In this document: piece after piece, positions 1 through 12,047 of the stretch
How the letters are laid out: every line of letters begins with the position of its first letter
How positions within the stretch are numbered: the first letter of the stretch is position 1
Assembly: GCA_029260575.1 (NCBI GenBank)
Contig: JAJDDB010000003.1
Location: forward strand, 186,001-250,000
DNA from: Phycisphaerales bacterium
Lineage (GTDB): Bacteria > Planctomycetota > Phycisphaerae > Phycisphaerales > SM1A02
Length of the DNA stretch: 64,000 bases
Direction: 5' to 3'
The notes under the pieces: generated by a model
What the model saw: only the letters and a program-made list of their open reading frames with translations
Told to the model about the DNA's origin: nothing
Database searches by the model: none
Program-made: the position numbers and the translations under genes

Positions 1-104
1 ATCGCCGGGTGCTCGAGCGCCCATTCTCCGAGCAGCATCTCAGCGTGCTCCTCGATCACCTTCTCCCGGAGGTAGGGCACGCGGTACTTCGAAGGAGCGC
101 GCAT
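1..104 (-). CDS. ImmA/IrrE-like metallopeptidase, N-terminal fragment
   Basis: Only the first 34 codons are inside the window; the gene runs off the left edge, so the HExxH zinc motif that would prove the family cannot be seen. The visible start (MRAPSKYRVPYLREK, followed by an amphipathic helix with VIEEHAEMLLGEW) resembles the N-terminus of ImmA/IrrE peptidases. Its ATG overlaps the stop of the XRE gene (TGATG), implying translational coupling. XRE-ImmA pairs are known from ICEBs1 (ImmR/ImmA) and from CBASS (CapH/CapP), where the peptidase cleaves the repressor after DNA damage or ssDNA sensing. Family call is inferred mainly from this context. Confidence 0.55.
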   Translation of the reverse strand, partial: MRAPSKYRVPYLREKVIEEHAEMLLGEWALEHPA

Positions 105-490
105 CATTCCTTCTCCTCCTCGTCGCGCTTTTTCTCGATCCTCTTGGTGAACTTCCGCAACTCTTCTGCGCTCAGGCCTTTGGCGGCGCGCAAGAGCTCC
201 GGCATCGCCTCCGGCTCGCTCTGGATGATCTCCGTCAGATCGTGGGGGACGCGCCCGGCCATCGCGATCCATTGATCGGGACTCTCGCCAAGCAGCTCTG
301 CCATCTTCCGCACGCGCTCGGCGGTCGGCGGGCGCTCGACCTTGCTCTTCTCGACGAGCGACAGGTACGTCGGGCTGACGCCGACGAGTTCCGCGAACTT
401 CCGCAGGCTGTAGCCCTTGTCGACCCGCTTCTGACGGACGAGGGCACCGAAGTGTTGTCGTTCGGTGGTCATTCTGGGCTCGATTGACAT
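104..490 (-). CDS. XRE-family helix-turn-helix repressor
   Basis: A 128-residue protein with an HTH_3 domain at about residues 13-70: the VRQKRVDKGYSLRKFAELVG and SPTYLSLVEKSK segments are the two HTH helices. The C-terminus is a charged helical tail rich in Lys and Glu, which could be the dimerisation or cleavage region. It is transcribed away from the nuclease-helicase-methyltransferase operon and overlaps the downstream peptidase start. A perfect inverted repeat at 529-569 in the divergent spacer is the obvious operator. A second in-frame ATG at 472 (MTTERQHF) is an alternative start. Likely role: autoregulation and repression of the operon at 597-7434 (inference). Confidence 0.85.
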   Translation of the reverse strand: MSIEPRMTTERQHFGALVRQKRVDKGYSLRKFAELVGVSPTYLSLVEKSKVERPPTAERVRKMAELLGESPDQWIAMAGRVPHDLTEIIQSEPEAMPELLRAAKGLSAEELRKFTKRIEKKRDEEEKE

Positions 491-528
491 CGAATCATCG
501 AATGTTTACTGTACATGGACATAACCGC

Positions 529-569
529 CGGGTCAACGCACCGATCAGCTGACCAACTGCGTTGACCCG
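529..569. promoter_or_regulatory. Perfect 12-bp inverted repeat, candidate operator
   Basis: The arms CGGGTCAACGCA (529-540) and TGCGTTGACCCG (558-569) are perfect complements separated by 17 bp, centred between the divergent XRE gene (start 490) and the first nuclease-like gene (start 597). Placement and symmetry fit a dimeric XRE repressor site controlling both directions. The AT-rich stretch at 501-522, with GTTTACTGTACAT, may contain a -10 region. Confidence 0.6.
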
Positions 570-596
570 TCCAACGTCGACTCGACTCATTGCGGC

Positions 597-1952
597 ATGT
601 TCGCGTGGGCTTGTCGTCGTCGATGGGAGTTCTCTGGTATTCCACTCATAGCCAACAAAGATGATCTCTGGGTCTTGGCCCCGACGAAGGACGACCTGCT
701 GGCTGGAGCGCAGTACGCGGCTGTCAGCCTTCCATGGACGTTCAATCGGATGATGAAGAACACTGGATCTCGCGGCCAGCAGGAGCGGGCACTGAACATC
801 GCGAAGGGCATCGTGGGGCAGGAGTTGCTCGGCCGCGCCATGCGCGAGCACGGGGTTTCCGCGACCTCTCAACGCAAGAGCCACCGCGACGAAGATCTCT
901 TCGACTTCCATGTCGAGATCGGCGGCCAGACACTCGACCTGGATGTCAAGACCTGGCACTACTTCACCGACTATAAGCCGCTCGGGCGATCGCCACTCTC
1001 AACGGACTTGCTCGTCGAGCACGCGGACTACTCGGACGCCGACTGGTCGCGGTTCTTCCCGATGCTCGTGCCTCATACTCAGATCGGACAGAGCAAGGAG
1101 TGCTACTGCTTCGCGCTCGCGAGCAGCATCGATCCTCGACGCGAGAACGACATCAACAGGACGGAGATGCGACTCGCCGCTTTCCCGTATGGGGAACTTC
1201 TTCCCTTCCTCAGCTCGAAGAAGCTGTGTGCCGTGCGAGAGGACTCTGAGGCGGGCTTCTGGCTCGAGCTAACCTGGCGGCCGGACGGGATGTTCGCGCC
1301 CACGAAGATGGAGATCACAGTCGTAGGTGAGTGGGCGGGCAAGCTGTGCCAGGTTCAAGCTGTGACTACTCGCGGCAAGACGACGAAGGTCGGGCCCTTC
1401 TCTTGCGTAGCGTCCTTTGCGATCAGTCCCGAGTCATATGAGGCATGGGGCGATGGGGTGATTGCGGTCCGCGTCGGGAAGAACGACTGCCGCGTACCGG
1501 TGCTGAATACGGCGCGCCGCGATGTCAATCGGAAGCCTGCGGAAGCCCTCATGTTCGCTCGGGATGACATCTGCAATCTGGTCCTACCGGACGATTACAG
1601 GCTGTACGTACTTGGTTGGATGCCGAAGACGGAGTACATCGATCGCTGCCGCGCCTATCCGGGCTGGGTATGGCCGATGAATTCCGAAGATCGCACCCGG
1701 AACCAAGCGTGGTCGATGATCACCGAGAGCGACATGAAGTCGCTAACGCGGGCCGGCTTCGATGACTGTGTCAAGCGCAAGCCTACGCGCCTTGAGGCTG
1801 GATGGATGAAAACCACTGGGCGCGGTGGTGGCGCCTGCTGCTACGTGTATCCAAACCTCGGTGGCGGCAGAGGCGGTGTCAGGGAGACGAATCTCTACTG
1901 CCTGCTCCAGGATGTTCACACGATGATGAGCATCGAGTCAATGGCGGAATGA
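597..1952 (+). CDS. PD-(D/E)XK nuclease-like protein A of a putative defence operon
   Basis: A 451-residue protein that I do not recognise as a named family. The block SHRDEDLFDF, then a strand, then LDLDVKTW (about residues 94-120) has the layout of a PD-(D/E)XK active site: an acidic residue, a beta hairpin, then D-x-K. The paralogue at 4664-5944 conserves the same residues. Other shared blocks are PWTFNRM near residue 47, RFFPMLVP near residue 152, and a C-terminal GGACC(Y/F)VYPNL...GGVR segment with a Cys pair. ATG at 597 is the only reasonable start; I see no strong Shine-Dalgarno. The helicase starts 15 bp downstream. Could be one subunit of a heteromeric restriction endonuclease; function is inferred. 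Confidence 0.7.
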   Translation: MFAWACRRRWEFSGIPLIANKDDLWVLAPTKDDLLAGAQYAAVSLPWTFNRMMKNTGSRGQQERALNIAKGIVGQELLGRAMREHGVSATSQRKSHRDEDLFDFHVEIGGQTLDLDVKTWHYFTDYKPLGRSPLSTDLLVEHADYSDADWSRFFPMLVPHTQIGQSKECYCFALASSIDPRRENDINRTEMRLAAFPYGELLPFLSSKKLCAVREDSEAGFWLELTWRPDGMFAPTKMEITVVGEWAGKLCQVQAVTTRGKTTKVGPFSCVASFAISPESYEAWGDGVIAVRVGKNDCRVPVLNTARRDVNRKPAEALMFARDDICNLVLPDDYRLYVLGWMPKTEYIDRCRAYPGWVWPMNSEDRTRNQAWSMITESDMKSLTRAGFDDCVKRKPTRLEAGWMKTTGRGGGACCYVYPNLGGGRGGVRETNLYCLLQDVHTMMSIESMAE

Positions 1953-1967
1953 GCGGAGACGGCGACT

Positions 1968-4667
1968 GTGACGAGCGGAGTTACGGCAGATTGGATTCGC
2001 TCGGCGTTGACTCCGGAGCAGCAGGCGCCGTTCGACCGCACGATGCCCAATGCGTGCATTCTTGCAGGCGCCGGATCGGGCAAGACGCGCACCCTTGTAC
2101 ACCTGATCGCTGCCGACCTGCTCGCGGGCGTCCCGGCATCCTCAATTGTCGCGTTCACTTTCACCGAAAAGGCTGCATCCGAGCTGCTGGCTCGCGTACA
2201 CCTGGCCACGAACGGGAAAGTTCCATCAGAGGATCTCGCCGGGTTGTTCACAGGAACGATCCACTCGTGGTGCTTTCAGTACCTTCTTCAACTGCCGCAG
2301 TACTACAACTTCGAATCGCTTGACGAACTCCAGATGGACTCGCTCGCGAGCCGACTGTACGACCATCTGGGACTCGAGGCGGCCTACAACAAGCGCTACC
2401 CTCTCGGGATTGAGCCGTTCCTCAAGGACCTGGAGCTGTTCTTCAACGAGCATGTCGCACTTGCCGATGTGCCGAGCTCCATTCGACCACCCATTGAGTG
2501 TTTCCTTGAGACTCTCAGTCAGAATCGACTACTGACCTTCGGGGCGATGATCCGTTTCGCTCTCGAACACATCGAGTCAGTCGGCCCGATTGGCGGATTG
2601 CACTCGCTCTACATTGACGAGTACCAGGACGTCAATCCTGCCCAAGTCCGCCTTGCCCGAGCGATGGTGGGGCCTGACGCTCGCGTGATTGGCGTGGGCG
2701 ATGACTTGCAGTGCATCTACAACTGGCGTGGAAGCGACGTAACGCGGATCATCGATTTTGAGTCAGACTTCGTCGACTCGTCGATCCATCGGCTTTCAAC
2801 GAACTTCCGATCGCGACCCGCAATCGTGGATGTCGCCAATGCAGTCGCGCAGGACATCGCGCTGCGCGACACGACCAAGACGCTCGTGTCCGGACGCCCT
2901 CCAGACCCGGGTCCAAATCTCTGCTGGGTGTCGACGTCGTCAGAGGAGACACAAGCGGACACGATTGTTGAGATCGTCTCGCGCTGTCACTCGACGGGTG
3001 TGCGTTGGAACCAGATGGCCATTCTCCTTCGTTCGGTCCGGAACTGGGGGCAACCGATCGTCGCGGCGCTTACGACCGCCGGCATTCCGGTCTACTGTCC
3101 AGTTCTCGCACGAGGTGGTGCCTTCGTAAATGACCTCCTGCTGCCACTCTTTGATTGGCTCCGCACGCCACACGAAGAACCTCGCAATGAGCAGGAGGAA
3201 GCCGACATTGCCAAGGCAGCGATCGACTTGTGGGAGAAGGTCAAGCAATGGACGGACCCGGCGTACCCAGAAGAGCAGTTCTGGATTGCGATCGATGCGT
3301 GGCTCACTCGCATCGAAGAAAAGAAGAACCAAGCGTACAACGTGCGTAGCCAGCTGTACGACCTCATGGAGGCGTGCGGCATCCGCGTCGCGTCCGACGA
3401 TCCGAACTTAATGGTCGGAATTGGCGTTGCATCCCAGATCATCCGGAGTGTGGAAGAGATCCACCGCCGACGCTTAAGTGGGCAGAGCCGACGTACACCT
3501 CGCGGCCTGATGAACGAAGTGTACCACGCCTTGAAGAGGAAACAGCAGGAGTTCGGAGAGAGCGCCCCGGTTGAGACCGTTGGCGATGCCGTACTCCTAA
3601 CAACGGTACACCAGGCGAAGGGGCTCGAGTGGCCCGTGGTCATTCTTCCGAATCTGGTTCAGCGCCGCTTCCCCGTTAGTCCGAGTTCGCATGGCACGAG
3701 CTTTCCCGACGCGCTCGCTGTGAGATACGGAACATCGCCCGATGATGAACGGCGTCTGTTCTACGTCGCAGTAACGCGAGCCAAGGAGCGGCTCTTCATT
3801 ATTGATCCGATGGACGACGACGCCCGTCGGCGATCTGCGTTCATCGACCGCCTGGCGGCACGTGGGTTGATCGCGAATACCACCGTTGGCGCGGCGACGC
3901 CGAACCTTTGGTCACCGGACTTGTCCAGCGAAGGCGATGATGACCTGCGGCCAGTGCGAGTCGGGCTCTCGGAGGCGCTCATGTATGTGGAGTGCCCCCT
4001 TCAGTATGGCCTCCGGCGAATTGTCGGCGTACAGCCTGCTGTCGGAGAAGAGCTCGGTTACGGCAAAGGGCTTCATGAGGTCATCCAGCGTCGCCTGCAT
4101 GATGACGACTGGGACTCCACGCGTGTCGAAGAGGAAATCGAGAAACACGTACATCTTCCGTTGGCCTCCGAGACGGTCGAAGCAAACGCGAGAACGGCCA
4201 TTCGCGAACGACTCCGTGCACTTGAGGCGCTCGGGATCTTCGACCGTGCTGTCGAACCGGAAGTCAACGTCGAAGTTCACGGCCGGCACGGAGTCATCCC
4301 TGGGATCATCGATGGCGTACACCATAACGACGATGGCACGGTTCTCATTCGAGACTGGAAATCGAGCATTCACGACAATCTGCTGCGGCGATACGAGAGG
4401 CAGCTGCAGTTCTACACGCATGCGCTGCGGAGCCAGGGGCACGCGGTAACGGGCGCCGAACTCGTTGACGTCGCCAAGTCGGCGAAGTCGAAGTCGCTAG
4501 CCGTCCATCCTGTCGATGTCTCAGCCGACGCAGTCAGCGCGCTGATGCGCGACTTGGACGCAAGCATCGAAGGCATCGCCCGCGGCGCGTTCCCGGCTCG
4601 ACCATCACCGGCCAGTTGCTCGACCTGCGACATGTGTCGGTTGTGCGCAGAACGAGTGATATCATGA
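1968..4667 (+). CDS. UvrD/RecB-like helicase with C-terminal Fe-S PD-(D/E)XK nuclease
   Basis: An 899-residue SF1A helicase-nuclease. Visible motifs: Walker A GAGSGKT (about residue 36), Ia TFTEKAASEL, II DEYQD (about 217), III GVGDDLQCIYNWRG, IV TNFRSRP, V TTVHQAKGLEW, VI DERRLFYVAVTRAKERL (about 595). The C-terminal third is an AddB/Cas4-like nuclease: a first Cys in VECPLQY (about 675), GIIDG and LIRDWKSS (about 775-798), ERQLQFYTHAL, and a final CSTCDMCRLC cluster (884-893). One distal plus three terminal Cys is the usual [4Fe-4S] pattern of such nucleases. GTG start at 1968; the stop overlaps the next ATG (ATGA). Expected to unwind and degrade DNA together with the flanking nuclease-like proteins. 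Confidence 0.88.
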   Translation: MTSGVTADWIRSALTPEQQAPFDRTMPNACILAGAGSGKTRTLVHLIAADLLAGVPASSIVAFTFTEKAASELLARVHLATNGKVPSEDLAGLFTGTIHSWCFQYLLQLPQYYNFESLDELQMDSLASRLYDHLGLEAAYNKRYPLGIEPFLKDLELFFNEHVALADVPSSIRPPIECFLETLSQNRLLTFGAMIRFALEHIESVGPIGGLHSLYIDEYQDVNPAQVRLARAMVGPDARVIGVGDDLQCIYNWRGSDVTRIIDFESDFVDSSIHRLSTNFRSRPAIVDVANAVAQDIALRDTTKTLVSGRPPDPGPNLCWVSTSSEETQADTIVEIVSRCHSTGVRWNQMAILLRSVRNWGQPIVAALTTAGIPVYCPVLARGGAFVNDLLLPLFDWLRTPHEEPRNEQEEADIAKAAIDLWEKVKQWTDPAYPEEQFWIAIDAWLTRIEEKKNQAYNVRSQLYDLMEACGIRVASDDPNLMVGIGVASQIIRSVEEIHRRRLSGQSRRTPRGLMNEVYHALKRKQQEFGESAPVETVGDAVLLTTVHQAKGLEWPVVILPNLVQRRFPVSPSSHGTSFPDALAVRYGTSPDDERRLFYVAVTRAKERLFIIDPMDDDARRRSAFIDRLAARGLIANTTVGAATPNLWSPDLSSEGDDDLRPVRVGLSEALMYVECPLQYGLRRIVGVQPAVGEELGYGKGLHEVIQRRLHDDDWDSTRVEEEIEKHVHLPLASETVEANARTAIRERLRALEALGIFDRAVEPEVNVEVHGRHGVIPGIIDGVHHNDDGTVLIRDWKSSIHDNLLRRYERQLQFYTHALRSQGHAVTGAELVDVAKSAKSKSLAVHPVDVSADAVSALMRDLDASIEGIARGAFPARPSPASCSTCDMCRLCAERVIS

Positions 4668-5944
4668 CTACACTGTCTGCCGTTGAACACATCTGGGTTG
4701 TCGAGCCAACACTAGGAGAGCGGCAGGAGGCTGCAGAGTACGCAGCCACTACGGTTCCCTGGACCTACAACCGCATGGGCAAGAGGCGCGATTCAGCAGG
4801 CGTGCGCGAATGCGCAATGAACATCGCCAAGGGCGTCGTGGCCCAAGAGTGTTTGCGACGCCGTCTGACTTCGATCGGCATCCGGGCGCCACGCCAGATC
4901 AAGAGTCATCGCACCGAGGATCTATACGACTTTCAGATCGAATGCAGCAACACGACCCTCAACATCGACCTAAAGACATGGGTGTACTACCGCGATTTTC
5001 GCGTAGCTGGCCGTGACCCGCTGACATTGGACATGATCGTCGACAATCGGTCCAACAGTGGTCCCAACTGGGGGCAGTTCTTTCCGATGCTTGTGCCCGA
5101 TGACCAGATTGGCAAGAAAGACGCGTACTGCTTCGGTTTTGCCGACACGTTTGATATGCGCCGTGACCTGAACACGGACCGCGACGCCTACATGCTTGCC
5201 GCGTTTCCGCATGGTGACGCTGCCGTTGAGGCGCTTATGTCTGGACAGACGTGCGCCCTGCGTGAACAGCGAGGGACCGGGCTCTTTCTCGACATCGCGT
5301 ATAACGCGCGCGCATCGGCCGATGCGATCGAGCTGATCGTGGTCGGCGAATGGGACGGCGGTGTGAAGAGGGAAGCAGTGCGGCTGACCGCCGGAGCCGA
5401 TCTTCGCGAGATTGGTCCGTTTGGAGCAATCGGATCATTGCAGCTATCGAAGAGCCACTTCGACGCACTGGCAGGTGAGGTGGTGGTATCGGTCGGCAAA
5501 GACAACCTGAATCGGTCGGCCGGCGTCAGCTTCGCCATTGGTCGAAACGACTTCTGCAATCTGATGCTGCCGCACACGTATCGCCTGTACTTCCTTGGTT
5601 GGATCTCGAATGCTGACTACTCGAAGGCGTGCAGAACGTATCCCAGTTGGATCTGGCCAAACAACGCGTCACGGTTCGAAAACCAGCCGTGGACTTCGTT
5701 CGACTACCGGGACAAGACCGCCATCAGCAAAGCTGGATACGACGACTGCCTTCGCGGAACGCCGCAGCGATTGCACGCGGGCTGGCTCAAGTCGACGTGG
5801 CGCACCGGTGGCGCTTGCTGCTTCGTGTATCCAAATCTCGGACAAAGAGGAGGAGTGCGGCGCACGAATCTCTACACGCTGCCGCAAGACTTGCGTATCA
5901 TGGACGAGACCGGCGCGATGGGCGCGGCGAACGCGACGAGGTAG
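4664..5944 (+). CDS. PD-(D/E)XK nuclease-like protein B, paralogue of protein A
   Basis: A 426-residue paralogue of the product of 597-1952, collinear over almost its full length (VPWTYNRM, NIAKGVVAQE, FFPMLVP, GGACCFVYPNL, GGVRRTNLY). The candidate active site is SHRTEDLYDF followed by LNIDLKTW (about residues 82-106), with the same acid and D-x-K positions as protein A. The open frame extends upstream to 4616, but ATG 4664 overlaps the helicase stop by 4 bp and matches the start of the homologous region. Keeping two diverged copies in one operon suggests two different subunits, as in heterodimeric restriction enzymes for asymmetric sites such as BbvCI (inference). Confidence 0.7.
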   Translation: MTTLSAVEHIWVVEPTLGERQEAAEYAATTVPWTYNRMGKRRDSAGVRECAMNIAKGVVAQECLRRRLTSIGIRAPRQIKSHRTEDLYDFQIECSNTTLNIDLKTWVYYRDFRVAGRDPLTLDMIVDNRSNSGPNWGQFFPMLVPDDQIGKKDAYCFGFADTFDMRRDLNTDRDAYMLAAFPHGDAAVEALMSGQTCALREQRGTGLFLDIAYNARASADAIELIVVGEWDGGVKREAVRLTAGADLREIGPFGAIGSLQLSKSHFDALAGEVVVSVGKDNLNRSAGVSFAIGRNDFCNLMLPHTYRLYFLGWISNADYSKACRTYPSWIWPNNASRFENQPWTSFDYRDKTAISKAGYDDCLRGTPQRLHAGWLKSTWRTGGACCFVYPNLGQRGGVRRTNLYTLPQDLRIMDETGAMGAANATR

Positions 5945-5949
5945 ACCGG

Positions 5950-7434
5950 ATGACACTCGAGCACAAGGACAGTCTTTTTGCACCTGACTCGGCGCCAGAG
6001 GCGGAGGAGAAGGTGCGCCGCGGCCCGCCCAATCGCATGAACGACCTCCCATACCGGGAGTGGATGAAATTCCAGAAGAGCTTCTTCCGGCACGACTCAG
6101 ACCAGCGATTAGTTGACGAGTGCGTAACCTTCTTCACGAAGGCTGTCTGGCCAGACGGGAAGAGATCGCGGACTCTGCTGATCGGATTCCCTGGTATTGA
6201 GACCAACGACTACAACGGCCGGCTCGTTGAGCATACACCCGGGGGCTCGTCGTTTGCCGATGTGCAGTCGGGTCTCGAAACTGAGAGCCCCGAGCTCCGC
6301 GACTTCGTGTTCGTGGACTTGCGAGAGTCGCTTAATGATGAAGCTGCTCTGGATCAGTTCCTGGCGGATCGGGCTGACGTGGTCTTTGGACTGATTCGCA
6401 AGGCACTGATCGATGATCGCTATTGCGGCTTTGTTGTTCCTGCCTCCCGTCAAGATGGCCGAGGGTTTCCGTTGGCCTGGTCGGTTGCCCAGGCGGCCCG
6501 GAGTCATCTACGACTTCGCGACGAGAAGATCGGACTCATAGAGGAGGACGGCAGGATCTACTACTGCCTCTTCTTCCAGGCGAGCGATGACGGCCGGCCG
6601 TCGAAGAGTATCTCGTCATCACAGATCTCTGTGGCCACCGTTGATCGGGAAGTGCCGTCTTGGGTGATTCCAAGACCGCCACCGCGTCGGCCAAACGAGA
6701 TTCTTCATCCGGCCAAGTACCCAGAGACGATGGTGGAGGAGTTCATTCGTCTCTTCACACAGCCCGGAGATTCGGTGTTCGACCCCATGCTGGGTACTGG
6801 AAGCACCGCGGTTGCGGCGATTCGCGCGAATCGAAATGGCTACGGGGTTGAGCTGAGTCAGGAGTTTGCGCAGATCGCGCGATCGCGGGTCGAGTCATCG
6901 ATCGCGGAATCGGGCAATCTCTTCTCGGACGACGCAGCTGTCAACGGACAGGTGTTTCTCGGCGACGCCACAAAGCTCGATGCTATCCCCGAGATGCTGG
7001 ACCTGAAGTTCGATTACGCGATCACGAGTCCGCCGTACTGGTCAATGTTGAGCAACCCCGGGAGTGAGAATCAGCGCAAACGACGGGACAGTGGGCTCCG
7101 ACTCACATACTCGGATGCTGAATCTGACGTGGGCAACATTGGAGAGTACGACCAGTTCATCGATGTTCTTGAGAACGTGTACGCAGGCGTCGCTGCTCAT
7201 TTGAAATCAGGCGGCGTGTTGACCGTCGTCGTGAAGAACGTCAAGCGTGAACACATCTTGTACGCACTTGCGTGGGATCTGACTGAGCGTCTCGCATCGC
7301 CGACTGCGCAGTACGATTACATCGGGAATACGTTTTGGTGCCAGGATGATGTGGGGCTAAAGCCGTTCGCGATCGGGATCCATTGGGTGAGCAACATCTT
7401 GCATCAGTACTGTCTGCATTTCCGCAGAAAGTAA
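5950..7434 (+). CDS. DNA methyltransferase (N4-cytosine/N6-adenine type)
   Basis: A 494-residue AdoMet-dependent DNA methylase. AdoMet-binding motif I is FDPMLGTGST (about residues 277-286), preceded by a motif-X-like HPAKYPE block. The catalytic motif IV is TSPPYW (about 359-364), typical of COG0863 amino-methyltransferases. Order X-I-IV, with about 260 residues before motif X, differs from the common IV...X-I arrangement of SPPY enzymes; the long N-terminus may recognise the target. ATG 5950 lies 5 bp after the previous stop, so it is the last gene of the operon. It probably protects host DNA from the associated nucleases. Its stop is 4 bp from the convergent HTH gene. Confidence 0.85.
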   Translation: MTLEHKDSLFAPDSAPEAEEKVRRGPPNRMNDLPYREWMKFQKSFFRHDSDQRLVDECVTFFTKAVWPDGKRSRTLLIGFPGIETNDYNGRLVEHTPGGSSFADVQSGLETESPELRDFVFVDLRESLNDEAALDQFLADRADVVFGLIRKALIDDRYCGFVVPASRQDGRGFPLAWSVAQAARSHLRLRDEKIGLIEEDGRIYYCLFFQASDDGRPSKSISSSQISVATVDREVPSWVIPRPPPRRPNEILHPAKYPETMVEEFIRLFTQPGDSVFDPMLGTGSTAVAAIRANRNGYGVELSQEFAQIARSRVESSIAESGNLFSDDAAVNGQVFLGDATKLDAIPEMLDLKFDYAITSPPYWSMLSNPGSENQRKRRDSGLRLTYSDAESDVGNIGEYDQFIDVLENVYAGVAAHLKSGGVLTVVVKNVKREHILYALAWDLTERLASPTAQYDYIGNTFWCQDDVGLKPFAIGIHWVSNILHQYCLHFRRK

Positions 7435-7438
7435 CTTC

Positions 7439-7843
7439 TCAAGTCCGTAACTTGTAGGCGAGAATTGCCCTCCAGTGTCGTCGTTGTGATGTCCAATGGA
7501 CTGCTGAGACGATGGATCGCAAGTCGCGTTCGGTGACTGGATCACGTCCCGATGCGACCGGTGGAAGGAACAAGATCTCCTCCTGAATATCCGGCGCCAG
7601 ATGCAGCAGGTTGAGGATCTGCGTCATCCGCGGCTGCGTGACACGAGCCAATCTCGCAAGCTCTGACTGGTTCGACACGACGCCGTCGCGCAACAGGCGA
7701 TCAAAGCTAATAGCCAGCGCCATCAGCTTCGAAACTCTCGGGACGCGGCCCGTTGGCCGTTCCTGCACCGGGGCCGGATCGGGGATCGCACGCTTCCGAT
7801 TCCCCTTGAAGGCGAAGTCAACGCGTCTGGTCACTGTGGTCAT
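7439..7843 (-). CDS. ParB/KorB-like HTH protein of the recombinase cassette
   Basis: A 134-residue basic protein with a central helix-turn-helix: QSELARLARVTQPRMTQIL then NLLHLAPDIQEEIL, the pattern of ParB/KorB-type HTH domains. It is the last gene of a leftward operon; its ATG overlaps the recombinase stop (ATGA). Small HTH proteins of this kind commonly sit after large serine recombinases together with DUF2924 proteins. It probably helps or regulates recombination, but no function is shown. It converges with the methyltransferase gene. Confidence 0.7.
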   Translation of the reverse strand: MTTVTRRVDFAFKGNRKRAIPDPAPVQERPTGRVPRVSKLMALAISFDRLLRDGVVSNQSELARLARVTQPRMTQILNLLHLAPDIQEEILFLPPVASGRDPVTERDLRSIVSAVHWTSQRRHWRAILAYKLRT

Positions 7844-9414
7844 GCCGCCTCCTCCAGCTGGGCCGTTACGAGCGAGCTGATGCCGTTGGGTCGGAATGTC
7901 ACCGATACGGTGCCGGCCTCGCCGTCGTACTCAACGCGTTCCACCAGAAGCGTGAGCAGGCGAGTCTGTTCGCGTGGGCTGAGGTTCGTCCAGATCGCGT
8001 CGAAGTCAGCGAATGCCGCCTCCGCCTCGGCGCGAGATATGGTCTCGCGGTCCAGTTCCGCCCGCCTGGCATCCAGGTTCGGCAGACGTCGTTCAGCGGC
8101 GGCGATCTGCTCATTCAGTTCGGCGATCCGTCCCGTCACCTCGCGGCTGACGCTTCGCTTCTCGACCAGCCGGCGAAGTGCGCGATGATTGTTGCCAACT
8201 GCGCGCTGCAGCTCGCTGCGTTCGGCGGTGAGCGCGGTTCGCTCGGTCTTGACTGCTGACTGAGCCTCGGTGAGAACCTGATGGAGCAGCGCGGTGTCAG
8301 TGGACAGACCTCGCACCTCGTCAATGACGAGCCTCTCGATCTCTTCGGCGGGGAGGGTGCTGGCCGAACACGTCTCGGCTCCATTCTTGATCGCGCCGAC
8401 GCAGCGATAGTAGCGGTAGAAGTGCTTCTTCTTGCCGCCGCAAAACGTGTGGGTCATGGACTGGTCACAGGTGCGACAGCGAAGGAGGCCCCGCAGGAGC
8501 GAGCCGTACTTGTTCCGCGTCTCGGGCCCGCCGGTCCGCCCGTTTAGTGAGAGCTGGGCCTGCACCTGGTCGAACAGCTCCTGATCGACGATGGCCTCGT
8601 GCTCGCCCTCATAGATCTCGCTCTTGTGCGTGATCTTGCCGGTGACGATAGGGTTGCGAAGCAGCGAGTAGAGCGTGGCCTTGTCGAACGGCCGGCCGCC
8701 GACGGTGGTTCCCTTCTTCGTCGTTCGCTTCTTGCTCGTCCATTCTCTATGGCGCAGCGCCTTGACGACCGGTAGCAGTGAGCCGAGCTCGAGGTACATC
8801 TTGAAGATCGCCCGCGTACGCTGGGCCTCGCGAGCGTTGACGACGAGTCGTGGACTCGGATTGGTGCGATCGACGTCGTAGCCGAGCACCGGGACGCCGC
8901 CGGTCCATTTGCCTTTGCGCTTCTGAGCCGCGATCTTGTCCCGGATGCGTTCGCCAATGATCTCGCGCTCGAACTGGGCGAACGACAGGAGGATGTTGAG
9001 CGTCAGGCGACCCATGGAGTGGGTCGTGTTGAACTGCTGGGTCACCGACACGAACGACACGCCCGCTTTCTCGAAGGTCTCCATGATCCGCGAGAAGTCC
9101 ATGAGCGAGCGGCTGAGCCGGTCGACCTTGTATACGACGATGCAGTCGATCTTCCCTGCCTCGATGTCTCGGAGCATGCGATCGAGTGCGGGGCGCTCCA
9201 TCGTGCCGCCGGAAAAGCCGCCGTCGTCATAGCGATCGGGATTGACCTCCCATCCCTCGGCTTTCTGGCTGGCGATGAACGCCTCCGCGCTTTCGCGCTG
9301 GGCATCGAGCGAGTTGAACTCTTGGTCGAGGCCCTCGTCGCTCGACTTCCGGGTGTAGATCGCGCAACGGATGGTGGGCGGCGGCGTCTCTGTCGCCTTG
9401 CTTCGCCGGCTCAT
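7840..9414 (-). CDS. Large serine recombinase (site-specific integrase)
   Basis: A 524-residue recombinase. The resolvase domain (about residues 15-160) begins CAIYTRKSSDEG, with nucleophile Ser24; conserved VVYKVDRLSRS and FAQFEREIIGERIRDK follow. Next come the recombinase domain (LGYDVD to the LLRNPIVTGK region), a zinc ribbon with CRTCDQSM and YRCVG...CSAS cysteines (about 310-350), and a coiled coil (about 385-450). Length is normal for the family and all key residues are present, so it looks functional. Both ends overlap neighbouring genes by 4 bp, forming a three-gene operon. It is the likely mobility enzyme of the island. Confidence 0.93.
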   Translation of the reverse strand: MSRRSKATETPPPTIRCAIYTRKSSDEGLDQEFNSLDAQRESAEAFIASQKAEGWEVNPDRYDDGGFSGGTMERPALDRMLRDIEAGKIDCIVVYKVDRLSRSLMDFSRIMETFEKAGVSFVSVTQQFNTTHSMGRLTLNILLSFAQFEREIIGERIRDKIAAQKRKGKWTGGVPVLGYDVDRTNPSPRLVVNAREAQRTRAIFKMYLELGSLLPVVKALRHREWTSKKRTTKKGTTVGGRPFDKATLYSLLRNPIVTGKITHKSEIYEGEHEAIVDQELFDQVQAQLSLNGRTGGPETRNKYGSLLRGLLRCRTCDQSMTHTFCGGKKKHFYRYYRCVGAIKNGAETCSASTLPAEEIERLVIDEVRGLSTDTALLHQVLTEAQSAVKTERTALTAERSELQRAVGNNHRALRRLVEKRSVSREVTGRIAELNEQIAAAERRLPNLDARRAELDRETISRAEAEAAFADFDAIWTNLSPREQTRLLTLLVERVEYDGEAGTVSVTFRPNGISSLVTAQLEEAA

Positions 9415-9917
9415 CGCTTGCCTCCAAGCCGGAAGAAGCGGAATCCATTGATGTGGCTGCCGGTGACCTTCTTGGCAATGGCCGAGAGCGTTCGGAATCT
9501 CTCGCCTTCGAACTCGAAGCCATCGTTGTCGGCCAGAACGACCACTCGCAGTGTTCGCCCCTTGTACTCGCGCATGATCGCGGAGCCTGGGGATGGGATG
9601 CGCGGATCGTTGTGCTCGCCGTTCGGTAGCTCGCGCGTCACCGAGACATCAACGTCATCGCCTGGAGGGACAATCGTTGTCTTCGGCGCCATGACTCGAA
9701 CGTCAGCGTCGTCAGCGATCTCTGCGGCACGCTTGCGTGCGCGCTCCGTCAGATCGCCCTCGGCGTTGGCCTGGATGCGCCAGGCGACCTTACGGATGAG
9801 GTAGGCACGGTGGCGGGTGCGGACAGGCTGGCCGTACAGCTCCTCGTATCGTTCGGCCAGCTCGCTGGTGGCCATGTGCTGCAGTGCGTCGATCTCTTTG
9901 GCGATATCGCCGGGCAT
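9411..9917 (-). CDS. DUF2924 family protein
   Basis: A 168-residue protein matching DUF2924: N-terminal helices with L-x-x-M-x-x-x-E-L-x-x-x-Y-x-E-L-Y-G (about residues 11-29) and RTRHRAYLIRKVAWRIQ, and a C-terminal beta region REYKGRTLRVVVL...FEFEGERFRTLSAIAKKVTGSHINGFRFF. DUF2924 genes are typically found directly upstream of serine recombinases in phage-like or transposon-like cassettes. The C-terminal half looks like a DNA-binding or regulatory module; biochemical function is unknown. The stop overlaps the recombinase ATG. Confidence 0.85.
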   Translation of the reverse strand: MPGDIAKEIDALQHMATSELAERYEELYGQPVRTRHRAYLIRKVAWRIQANAEGDLTERARKRAAEIADDADVRVMAPKTTIVPPGDDVDVSVTRELPNGEHNDPRIPSPGSAIMREYKGRTLRVVVLADNDGFEFEGERFRTLSAIAKKVTGSHINGFRFFRLGGKR

Positions 9918-10438: not shown

Positions 10439-11665
10439 ATGCTCCTCTTCTGGCGCATCCGGTATCTCGACTCTCGGGATCGCGAATTCAAGGATCGCGA
10501 TCTCTGGCTGGACACCAGCACACTCGATGCAGTCACGCGCGCCGCCGTTGAGCTGTGCTCAGCGCGCAACGATTCTGGCAGCAATCGACGGGAGTGGTTG
10601 CGCTATCGCCAGCTCTTCCGCGAGGAGCGATGGTCCGATTCGGAAATGCAGGCACTCGTGGAGCAGCATGGTGGGCTCGGCTCTGTGTTTGTGCATGACT
10701 ATTTCGAGGATGAGAATTCGCAGCCGCTTTCGTCGAAGAGGATGGCTGAGATCCTGACCGGTAGCCCAACTGCAATCCTGCTTCCTGCAGGCGCCCGGCA
10801 GCATGATGTGGAATACGCCCTCGCAGACAAGCGGCCCATCCCGATCGAACAGATCACCCTGTCGGCTGATGATCTGCGCATCCTCGGCTACTTTTCTCGC
10901 GACCTGCGCGAGATGCTCTCGTCCGCGTTCTACCGGGACGGGCCGGGAAGCCTCCACAGTGTGGGGAATGGACCACCGGAATTGCGCACAGCCGTCACCG
11001 ATGAAGAAATCAGATCGTTTATCACGATCTTCCGAAGGCTCTACATGACGAAGGAGCCAGCGGGGTTCCTCAAGGCGGTCGAAGTGTTCTCGCGTGCGAC
11101 AAGCGACTACCCGCTCGGCCGATGGTGCGAGGGCTCTGGCGCGGATTACCAACATGAGCTTCAAGAGAAGCCGTGGCTGGTCCCCTTTGTTGGGCATGAG
11201 AACGTGCGGTTCAGCCGAAAGCGCCTGATCGACGTGTTCCTATATACACGCTATGCGCATCAACCCGACGCGACACGCGAGCGTCAGTATCGAGACTGTC
11301 TGGCTGAGGTCGGCGGTCGTCAGGCGCTCTTGACCTGGCTTTTTCTTCGCGTGATGTGGGAATGCAGTCTGCACATGCGGAACGCCGGGCTGATCATCAC
11401 GGACTTCTTCAATCGCTACTGCGAGGCACATGGCGCTACCTGTGCGGTGCTTGCTTCGGTGGCTCACGAAAACCCTGGCATCGGGTACCTCGAGAAGAAG
11501 GAGGACCGTGAGCGACGCCTACTCGAGAAAGCAGTATCCCAATTAGCATCACAACTCTGGGAGGAAGCAGGCCGGCCAGAGGGCGGCCCCGCAAAGTATG
11601 CCGCCGAGGCCCGGTCGCACTTGTTGGCCGAGTCCCTTGGCGCACGAGAGAGGGAGGCGCGCTGA
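10439..11665 (+). CDS. Unknown 408-residue island protein
   Basis: I do not recognise this protein. It is soluble, without signal peptide or membrane segments, and mostly alpha-helical from about residue 190 on. It begins with a strand-like LLFWRIRYLD, continues with RDLWLDTSTLDAVTRAAVEL, and ends in a charged helical region (EKKEDRERRLLEKAVSQL). One Cys-His stretch, MWECSLHMRNAG, lies near residue 305. It is divergent from the recombinase operon and is the last gene before the tRNA-fMet, so it is cargo of the island. No nuclease, NTPase or toxin motif is obvious. A role in defence is possible only by location. Confidence 0.6.
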   Translation: MLLFWRIRYLDSRDREFKDRDLWLDTSTLDAVTRAAVELCSARNDSGSNRREWLRYRQLFREERWSDSEMQALVEQHGGLGSVFVHDYFEDENSQPLSSKRMAEILTGSPTAILLPAGARQHDVEYALADKRPIPIEQITLSADDLRILGYFSRDLREMLSSAFYRDGPGSLHSVGNGPPELRTAVTDEEIRSFITIFRRLYMTKEPAGFLKAVEVFSRATSDYPLGRWCEGSGADYQHELQEKPWLVPFVGHENVRFSRKRLIDVFLYTRYAHQPDATRERQYRDCLAEVGGRQALLTWLFLRVMWECSLHMRNAGLIITDFFNRYCEAHGATCAVLASVAHENPGIGYLEKKEDRERRLLEKAVSQLASQLWEEAGRPEGGPAKYAAEARSHLLAESLGAREREAR

Positions 11666-12047
11666 GGGCGGCGATTGGAGATTCATGGCCGCTCGTCGAC
11701 CGGAACCGGCTGGACAGCGTGAGTCATGGCAGGCCGCAAGATTGAGGTTGCACTCTCTCCGGGAGTCCGAACTGCCATGTTTGCCTCCGCCTCTTCAGAG
11801 ACAACCGTCCGATCACCCCGGCCTATGTTTCGACCAGAGACTCAGAGACTTCGGCCCCGGATCGGCACCCTCGACGCCGTGCCGGCGCGAGCCGGTTATC
11901 GCCGGCGTTCGGCCCGAGAGACCGCGAGCAACCCCGACCGCTCGCAAACCTCGCCACCACGGGCCAAAACCGACAACGCCGCCGAGGTCTCTCGGCGGCG
12001 TCATTCGTGAACCGTGGGGCCGGTCGCGTTTGCAACCGACCGGGTAA
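11666..12047. other. Noncoding island end with GC hairpin
   Basis: About 380 bp between the last island gene and the tRNA-fMet. I see no convincing gene. A perfect hairpin CGCCGCCGAG-GTCT-CTCGGCGGCG lies at 11977-12000, but no T-run follows. An imperfect CCGGTCG...CGACCGG palindrome at about 12020-12043 abuts the tRNA 3' end, where an attachment site would be expected. Confidence 0.4.

Follow-up and report, generated by a model that had tools for sequence, protein, structure and literature searches.

Four tightly packed genes at the beginning of a planctomycete DNA stretch raise the question of whether they form an unnamed defence system, and whether the two divergent regulatory genes beside them belong to it. 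In this study, we analysed 64,000 nucleotides of contig JAJDDB010000003.1 from a Phycisphaerales bacterium (positions 186,001 to 250,000; hereafter the window, a stretch of G000:C3). An earlier note on this DNA had proposed a damage-induced restriction system with methylation self-protection, composed of an XRE/ImmA switch, two nuclease-like proteins (A and B), a helicase-nuclease (Hel) and a DNA methyltransferase (M). The results showed that an unnamed restriction-modification (R-M)-like module is well supported, and we assign a probability of about 0.72 to the reading as a whole, namely an R-M-like defence module carried by a prophage. The gene set, the motifs, the co-occurrence of the genes and the decay of one copy support the restriction part of the proposal, whereas the XRE/ImmA part did not hold as stated. 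Related genomes and loci carry G and L labels below; L003 and L061 are the same contig beyond or around the window.

The four-gene operon and its relatives

The operon occupies positions 597–7434 of the + strand and consists of A (597–1952, 451 aa), Hel (1968–4667, 899 aa), B (4664–5944, 426 aa) and M (5950–7434, 494 aa). The true start of A possibly lies a few codons 3' of 597, the ATG of B at 4664 lies inside a frame listed from 4616, and the ATG of M at 5950 agrees with its relatives, the mechanical open reading frame (ORF) at 5629–7434 being longer. The ORF coordinates confirmed the described arrangement of four rightward genes with gaps of 15, -4 and 5 bp, and an identity of 42% confirmed that B is a paralogue of A.

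Neither A nor B matched any family in Pfam (E up to 1), PADLOC (up to 1), NCBIfam (up to 0.01) or PHROGs (up to 0.1), and no PDB sequence matched the A-family profile at E up to 10. Seven A-family rows were aligned: two from the window (A and B), four from bacterial relatives and one from Haloferax. Q68, D93, D96, D109 and K111 (numbering from window base 618) were invariant in all seven, B thus keeping the catalytic set, and the residue beside Q68, at the classical position of the helix glutamate, was E in five rows, D in one and S in one. We take this D..D..DxK set to be a PD-(D/E)XK motif. An AlphaFold2 model of A, built from an alignment of six rows, reached a pTM of 0.78 and a mean pLDDT of 76. 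In structural comparison, SPARDA nuclease chains ranked top (Z 5.2, 127 residues, rmsd 4.5). The matches also included EcoRV (Z 3.4), a phage Holliday-junction resolvase (Z 3.5) and many beta-sandwich proteins over residues 184–320. Against viral models, two uncharacterised proteins were found at E <= 0.001, and the match at rank 7 (E 0.016) is named a restriction endonuclease. Because the fold Z values may be due to chance, the nuclease assignment of A draws mainly on the conserved residues. As the putative linked endonuclease of an R-M system, the A/B family presents D..D..DxK in 7/7 rows and a weak fold match (Z 5.2). These results weakly suggest that A and B are PD-(D/E)XK-like nucleases of an undescribed family; the nuclease-like character given to them earlier was kept in this qualified form, and no non-nuclease fold arose to replace it.

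Hel matched UvrD-helicase (1e-35), UvrD_C (5e-27) and PDDEXK_1 (1e-20) in Pfam. It carries a DEYQD motif and a nuclease DWK motif, keeps cysteines in the pattern C..C-x2-C-x5-C, and the Walker A motif of one copy reads ASAGSGKT. All six full-length Hel proteins combine a UvrD superfamily 1 (SF1) helicase with a C-terminal PDDEXK_1 (PF12705) domain, and by this architecture Hel is a UvrD-Cas4-type fusion. The UvrD helicase and the cysteine-bearing nuclease of the earlier description, UvrD/AddB-like with an Fe-S nuclease, were therefore retained, but AddB gave way to the UvrD-Cas4 type. Such fusions, described in 2017, presumably by Hudaiberdiev et al., occur near type III R-M and Dcm/Vsr genes and were proposed to act in multiple defence systems (PMC5704561).

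The fourth gene was confirmed as a DNA methyltransferase by its Pfam match (N6_N4_Mtase, 2e-21) and by the motifs DPMLGTGS and TSPPYW. The S-adenosylmethionine (SAM) motif DPxxGTGS/T and TSPPYW are present in all seven M proteins, so that the linked methyltransferase has intact catalytic and SAM motifs. The S-P-P-Y motif is, we assume, that of N4-cytosine methylation. These features suggest that M is an N4/N6 DNA methylase, with N4-cytosine as the product predicted from motif rules. In the model of M, the catalytic half was poorly predicted; residues 51–215, on the N-terminal side, matched a SAM methyltransferase (Z 11.1, rmsd 3.2, 140 aligned). The alignments of this N-terminal domain contained no catalytic motif of the TSPPYW kind, and an hhalign comparison of the two halves, made as a test for duplication, gave P 0.004–0.006 and a probability of 7–9%. 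The Haloferax M (WP_275880820.1, 294 aa) aligns with the catalytic part alone. A scan of IMG/VR with M returned 10 contigs, whose alignments covered chiefly the methylase core. At L010:398-4187 and L054:3724-7554, relatives of the M core have a second methylase and a large protein that lacks a Pfam match as neighbours, and the core of M may originate from type II R-M clusters.

Including the window, A was found at seven loci, and M of the same family was present in the cluster at all seven; Hel was full length at six and a remnant at the seventh. The bacterial hosts belong to three phyla or more, and a Haloferax plasmid carries the archaeal copy. A pattern scan of genome contigs recovered four loci, from Salirhabdus (L005), Planococcus (L006), a Chloroflexi metagenome-assembled genome (MAG; L007) and an Eisenbacteria MAG (L008). 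By phylum, A occurred in 1/392 genomes for the window (its own genome), 2/398 for Salirhabdus (Salirhabdus and G410), 1/400 for Chloroflexi (the L007 host) and 1/20 for Eisenbacteria (the L008 host). One of 72,556 plasmid records contained A, namely pSVX82-3 of Haloferax lucentense (L019). A was not found in 50,697 phage records, and pattern scans of IMG/VR with A profiles found no relative; a Hel scan of IMG/VR gave one weak contig.

The gene order varied between the loci: A-Hel-B-M in the window, Hel-A-B'-M in L005 and L006, Hel-A-M in L007 and L008, and M-Hel-A in L019, where B' is a 303–307 aa relative of A and B with the DxK motif. B of the window occupies the position between Hel and M that is filled by A in four other bacterial loci. 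The bacterial copies share similar levels of identity in the three proteins, with 50–54% in A, 45–52% in Hel and 46–54% in M, and B is 40–42% identical to the others; these ranges exclude the Salirhabdus–Planococcus pair, which is 65–71% identical. The recurrence of the gene set at six other loci indicates that it is more than a chance association, and the genes never co-occurring elsewhere, the outcome named beforehand as contrary, did not arise. In G410, Hel is reduced to about 190 C-terminal residues and A contains one stop, while M is intact and open. Since the nuclease side has decayed and M is intact, this copy fits an R-M system, in which the restriction side would be expected to be lost first. 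Directly 3' of the Salirhabdus operon, L005:13919-18215 encodes a D12 adenine methylase and HerA with a weak NurA-like partner, beside a tyrosine integrase.

The Haloferax copy has already appeared in print. In the available part of the methylome study of H. lucentense SVX82, a methylase on pSVX82-3, SVXHx_5097, is described as "solitary" and expressed (PMC11001535). SVXHx_RS19050 is the only annotated DNA methyltransferase in the gene table of this plasmid, which is incomplete, and because it is the sole one we took it, by elimination, as SVXHx_5097. On pSVX82-3, SVXHx_RS19050 is followed by Hel and A. The same source, as far as available, reports that SVX82 lysate moderately cleaves unmethylated lambda DNA, and that cytosine is methylated in CcTTG on one strand, a mark that the text ties to no named gene (PMC11001535). 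SVXHx_2221 is another candidate for CcTTG methylation. Another region of the plasmid (NZ_CP104744.1 21086-44673; L064) is annotated with SNF2, DEAD/DEAH, MBL, VWA, AAA, UvrD-helicase and PD-(D/E)XK genes and may be a further defence cluster.

The prophage, its exchangeable slot and the XRE/ImmA pair

The operon is prophage cargo. On the ImmA side, beyond the window, the - strand encodes RecB-like exonuclease, DUF669, ERCC4, RecD2 and D5-primase proteins, followed farther out by terminase, portal, capsid/protease, major tail and tape-measure proteins. These structural genes, from terminase to tape measure, overturned a first view of an element without virion genes. The prophage was traced over about 155–196 kb of G000:C3 (L061, L003 and window 1–9917).

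The operon lies in a slot between the XRE/ImmA pair and an integrase module. The XRE gene (104–490, - strand) encodes a CapH/ImmR-like prophage repressor, as judged from PADLOC and PHROG matches and from its conservation in related elements. Its TGA overlaps the ATG of the ImmA/IrrE-like gene at 107–105; of this CapP/ImmA-like metalloprotease, only the start lies in the window (1–107, - strand), the gene continuing to G000:C3:185421. Completed outside the window, it matched Peptidase_M78 (1.2e-11) and carries a HEIGH motif, so the described overlap of a divergent XRE gene with an ImmA/IrrE-like start was correct. On the other side of the slot, the - strand carries a small HTH protein (7439–7843), a large serine recombinase that is the probable prophage integrase by its domain match (7840–9414), and a DUF2924 protein, also assigned by domain match (9411–9917); together they form the recombinase module of the prophage backbone. 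Between this module and a tRNA-Met gene at 12047 lies a 408-aa ORF (window 10439–11665) with a sub-threshold DUF2934 match.

We searched for related elements with ImmA at E <= 1e-20, and 6/246 genomes, our own included, were positive. A and B were absent, at E <= 1e-6, from the stretches read around ImmA in all five other genomes. G111 shares the backbone on either side of the slot, with 66–77% identity in the recombinase module and 47–81% on the other side, and its slot carries HsdM, HsdS, a DrmC-like protein and HsdR. Its cargo region (L039:4742-16674) comprises the type I R-M genes, the DrmC-like PLD protein (5e-128), an Mrr_cat protein and two more genes near the recombinase side. G024 shares the backbone and the phage structural genes (39–70% identical) and carries a single cargo gene, the PADLOC candidate PDC-S11 (1.8e-144), which lies at L042:2144-3244 and overlaps the XRE start in the same direction. 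In G194, XRE and the recombinase module enclose type I HsdM, HsdS and an HsdR-like frame, the last recognised by eye. Beside XRE in G220, JetC/JetD (Wadjet-type) models matched weakly, and the piece read showed no recombinase module; the large SMC-like protein by its XRE/ImmA pair (L043:451-7956) possibly belongs to a divergent Wadjet-like system. In G098, XRE/ImmA adjoins other serine recombinases and no slot can be defined. Known or candidate defence genes thus fill the slot in 3/3 related elements with both borders in view, and in 5/6 elements read the pair has defence genes beside it, whether known, candidate or weakly matched.

The best PADLOC models were capP for ImmA (3.8e-17) and capH for XRE (5.9e-8); XRE also matched PHROG repressors, and HExxH was intact in 5/5 XRE/ImmA pairs examined. 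In their available parts, published reports state that CapH with CapP controls adjacent immune operons upon sensing single-stranded DNA (PMC13373217), and that an integrative element is under the control of ImmR/ImmA pairs, which act upon DNA damage (PMC10233336). The window shares features with both: an XRE repressor and an M78 protease with HExxH stand beside a presumed immune operon, and both genes sit among the backbone genes of a mobile element. A search around the other six operon loci at E <= 1e-6 did not find the pair. Because it is kept with other cargo and was not found at those six loci, XRE/ImmA is part of the prophage and belongs to the element, not to the operon. The claim that it is a component of the system was therefore dropped.

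Control of the operon by the pair is a separate matter. The divergent region between XRE and A (491–596, 106 bp) contains one sigma-70-like match, the sole one in 400–700, which reads towards XRE. It also contains an operator-like site, TGTTTACTGTACA, at 503–515 (+ strand), 82 bp before the A ATG and repeated in related elements. The 13-bp pattern TGTTTACYGTWCA occurs, at <= 1 mismatch, at six sites in 177,693 bases of six elements, compared with a mean of 0.25 and a largest count of 1 in 20 Markov controls. Three elements have it twice each. On the cargo side, it lies between XRE and A in the window (503–515), before the first cargo gene in G111 (L039:4824) and before PDC-S11 in G024 (L042:3324), so that a predicted repressor site precedes the cargo in 3/6 elements; the second site of each lies between ImmA and the next phage gene (L003:15375 in G000, L039:17801 in G111, L042:964 in G024). 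The pattern was drawn from four of the six sites; L003:15375 and L042:3324 are independent of it, and both stand at predicted places. No such site was found at <= 1 mismatch in G194, G220 or G098, the last having one with two mismatches. The pattern originated from three shared 9-mers that overlap into an 11-mer. Because 106/2000 Markov controls share as many 11-mers, the 11-mer match alone is weak, and a first view of the 9-mers as chance was revised after extension to the 13-bp site. The window site lies 13 bases before the XRE start and may serve XRE itself. On the simplest reading, XRE may bind the 13-bp sites and thereby repress the cargo as well as the phage gene; alternatively, the site may be a promoter element. 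The site search raised control of the cargo by XRE from doubtful to somewhat probable. The proposed control of the operon by XRE/ImmA thus stays plausible in view of the CapH/CapP likeness and the operator-like site, but a switch dedicated to the operon does not.

Proposed mechanism and competing explanations

In the proposed R-M-like module, M would methylate a specific sequence in the DNA of host and prophage, and A, here with the second copy B, would cut DNA lacking the M mark. Hel, with its own nuclease and, judged by its family, a predicted 3'-5' polarity, would translocate to find or join sites, unwind and degrade DNA from the break, or do both. Other defence genes occupy the same slot, and therefore the module probably excludes competing phages from the lysogen. 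XRE probably represses the phage gene beside ImmA together with the slot cargo, and cleavage of XRE by ImmA would lift this repression. We infer cleavage, its dependence on methylation, the order of the steps, the way in which A and Hel share the work, phage exclusion and all regulation.

Several points weigh against this reading. The activities of the module members are predicted entirely from sequence and models, Foldseek found no PDB match for the A model at E <= 0.001, and the best fold Z for A (5.2) falls in the range flagged as possible chance. The A family is rare across the genome and plasmid searches, and the decay argument concerns a single copy, G410. M relatives also occur apart from the full set: an M query matched 9/299 genomes, two at full length (Salirhabdus and G410) and seven over the core only, and full-length relatives were found on two Kozakia plasmid records (34.5%). 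On the K. baliensis plasmid, the relative (L029:9950-11389) includes the N-terminal domain, and A and Hel are not annotated nearby. Nor has the cleavage by SVX82 lysate been assigned to the module, pSVX82-3 having another annotated restriction endonuclease and the UvrD/PD-(D/E)XK cluster, and further R-M genes on the SVX82 chromosome are reported in the available part of the source (PMC11001535).

The competing explanations concern either the regulation or the function of the module. In its strict form, the first model makes XRE/ImmA a dedicated part of the defence system that is silent until DNA damage. The capP and capH models, HExxH in 5/5 pairs, the operator-like site between XRE and A and the CapH+CapP precedent, in the part of the report available (PMC13373217), speak for it; the pair was nevertheless not found near the other six operons, is kept with different cargo, and has the 13-bp site also behind ImmA, before a phage gene, so that we consider this model very unlikely. 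The opposite view, that the pair is a lysogeny switch of the ImmR/ImmA kind only and that the defence operon is constitutive, fell with the site search from fairly likely to doubtful. It agrees with the phage genes for structure and replication that lie on the ImmA side and with the integrase module on the other, with the XRE matches to PHROG repressors, with the varying orientation of the cargo relative to XRE, and with the ImmR/ImmA precedent as far as that source was available (PMC10233336). It is at odds with the 13-bp site before the cargo in G000, G111 and G024, though the G000 site could serve XRE alone, and with the presence of the pair beside defence genes of some grade in most of the elements.

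The module might also serve phage or plasmid DNA metabolism (recombination, replication or end processing) instead of defence, given that Hel resembles repair helicase-nucleases and that several copies lie on mobile elements. We regard this as distinctly unlikely: A was found neither in the IMG/VR pattern scans nor in the phage records, the copies come from elements unrelated to each other and from a 13.6-kb MAG contig that showed no element genes, and the linked methylase and the nuclease-side decay fit R-M better. Just as unlikely, in our estimate, is an abortive nuclease A/B triggered by phage components, with M regulatory and no restriction of unmethylated DNA. No recognition domain was identified in A/B, and the best, weak match of A is a SPARDA nuclease chain (Z 5.2), in line with such a role; M, however, is present at 7/7 loci and has stayed intact in the copy with broken Hel and A. 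An R-M-like module carried by the prophage accordingly remains our preferred reading.

A bolder form of it is rather doubtful as a whole: a new R-M type in which a UvrD-Cas4-type Hel and an A-family nuclease would act on DNA unmethylated at an asymmetric site, the archaeal M would make CcTTG, the prophage-slot cassettes would stand behind a CapH/CapP-like operator, and damage or phage attack would set off the prophage and its cassette at once. Comparing marks on one strand would then need a motor that moves along the DNA, as type III systems have, although the helicase here is unrelated to theirs.

Comparison with known systems

The locus is less striking than claimed, because the switch lies outside the system and the helicase-nuclease class has already been linked to defence in print; it may be more striking in another respect, namely the shared site and the exchangeable defence cassettes under a phage repressor. 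If the preferred reading is true, an unnamed R-M-like module with an undescribed nuclease family, common to bacteria and an archaeon, is added, and the H. lucentense methylase published as solitary has linked nucleases. A prophage slot that swaps whole defence systems under an apparent phage repressor site also raises the question of whether damage-type regulators govern the phage, the cargo or both.

No name for the A-Hel-M set was found in the open-licence PMC literature, the scope of this search, with subscription journals, preprints and newer defence-finder lists lying outside it. The proposal that a methylase and the nuclease-type proteins A and B belong to a defence-like module without a name, distinct from Gabija, was upheld. 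Gabija was rejected on the lack of a GajA (ATPase and TOPRIM) domain among the Pfam matches of the four operon proteins. Type I R-M was rejected on A/B without a PADLOC or Pfam match and a Hel of UvrD type, with no HsdS or HsdR; type III R-M on Hel being SF1 UvrD-type in 6/6 full-length copies and not SF2 Res; and AddAB/AdnAB on a single Hel without paired helicase/nuclease subunits.

The XRE/ImmA pair resembles CapH/CapP and ImmR/ImmA in that an XRE gene overlaps an M78/IrrE protease gene beside defence cargo. It differs from these regulators in being prophage backbone that is not tied to the operon across genomes, and in having its presumed site also before a phage gene.

Hel resembles Gabija in its UvrD-type helicase, its best PADLOC match being the GajB model, but the module has no GajA, Hel has its own nuclease domain and a methylase is present. 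Like AddAB/AdnAB, Hel joins an SF1 helicase and a cysteine-bearing PDDEXK nuclease in one chain; unlike them, it is a single 900-aa protein that has no partner subunit and shares its operon with a methylase. In architecture, Hel is like the UvrD-Cas4 fusions, which also unite a UvrD-like SF1 helicase with a pfam12705 nuclease and adjoin modification genes; the contexts named in the available text are type III Mod/Res and Dcm/Vsr, and an A-type nuclease with such a methylase is not among them (PMC5704561).

Like type II and type III R-M systems, the module unites a methylase and a nuclease in one operon, type III also including a helicase, and, as in R-M, the nuclease side has decayed in one copy. 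In contrast to type III, its helicase is an SF1 protein with a RecB/Cas4-like nuclease and not Res, and in contrast to both types it has a separate A-family nuclease, sometimes two. The combination of methylase, nuclease and helicase is thus known from R-M, whereas the different motor and the undescribed nuclease family are new.

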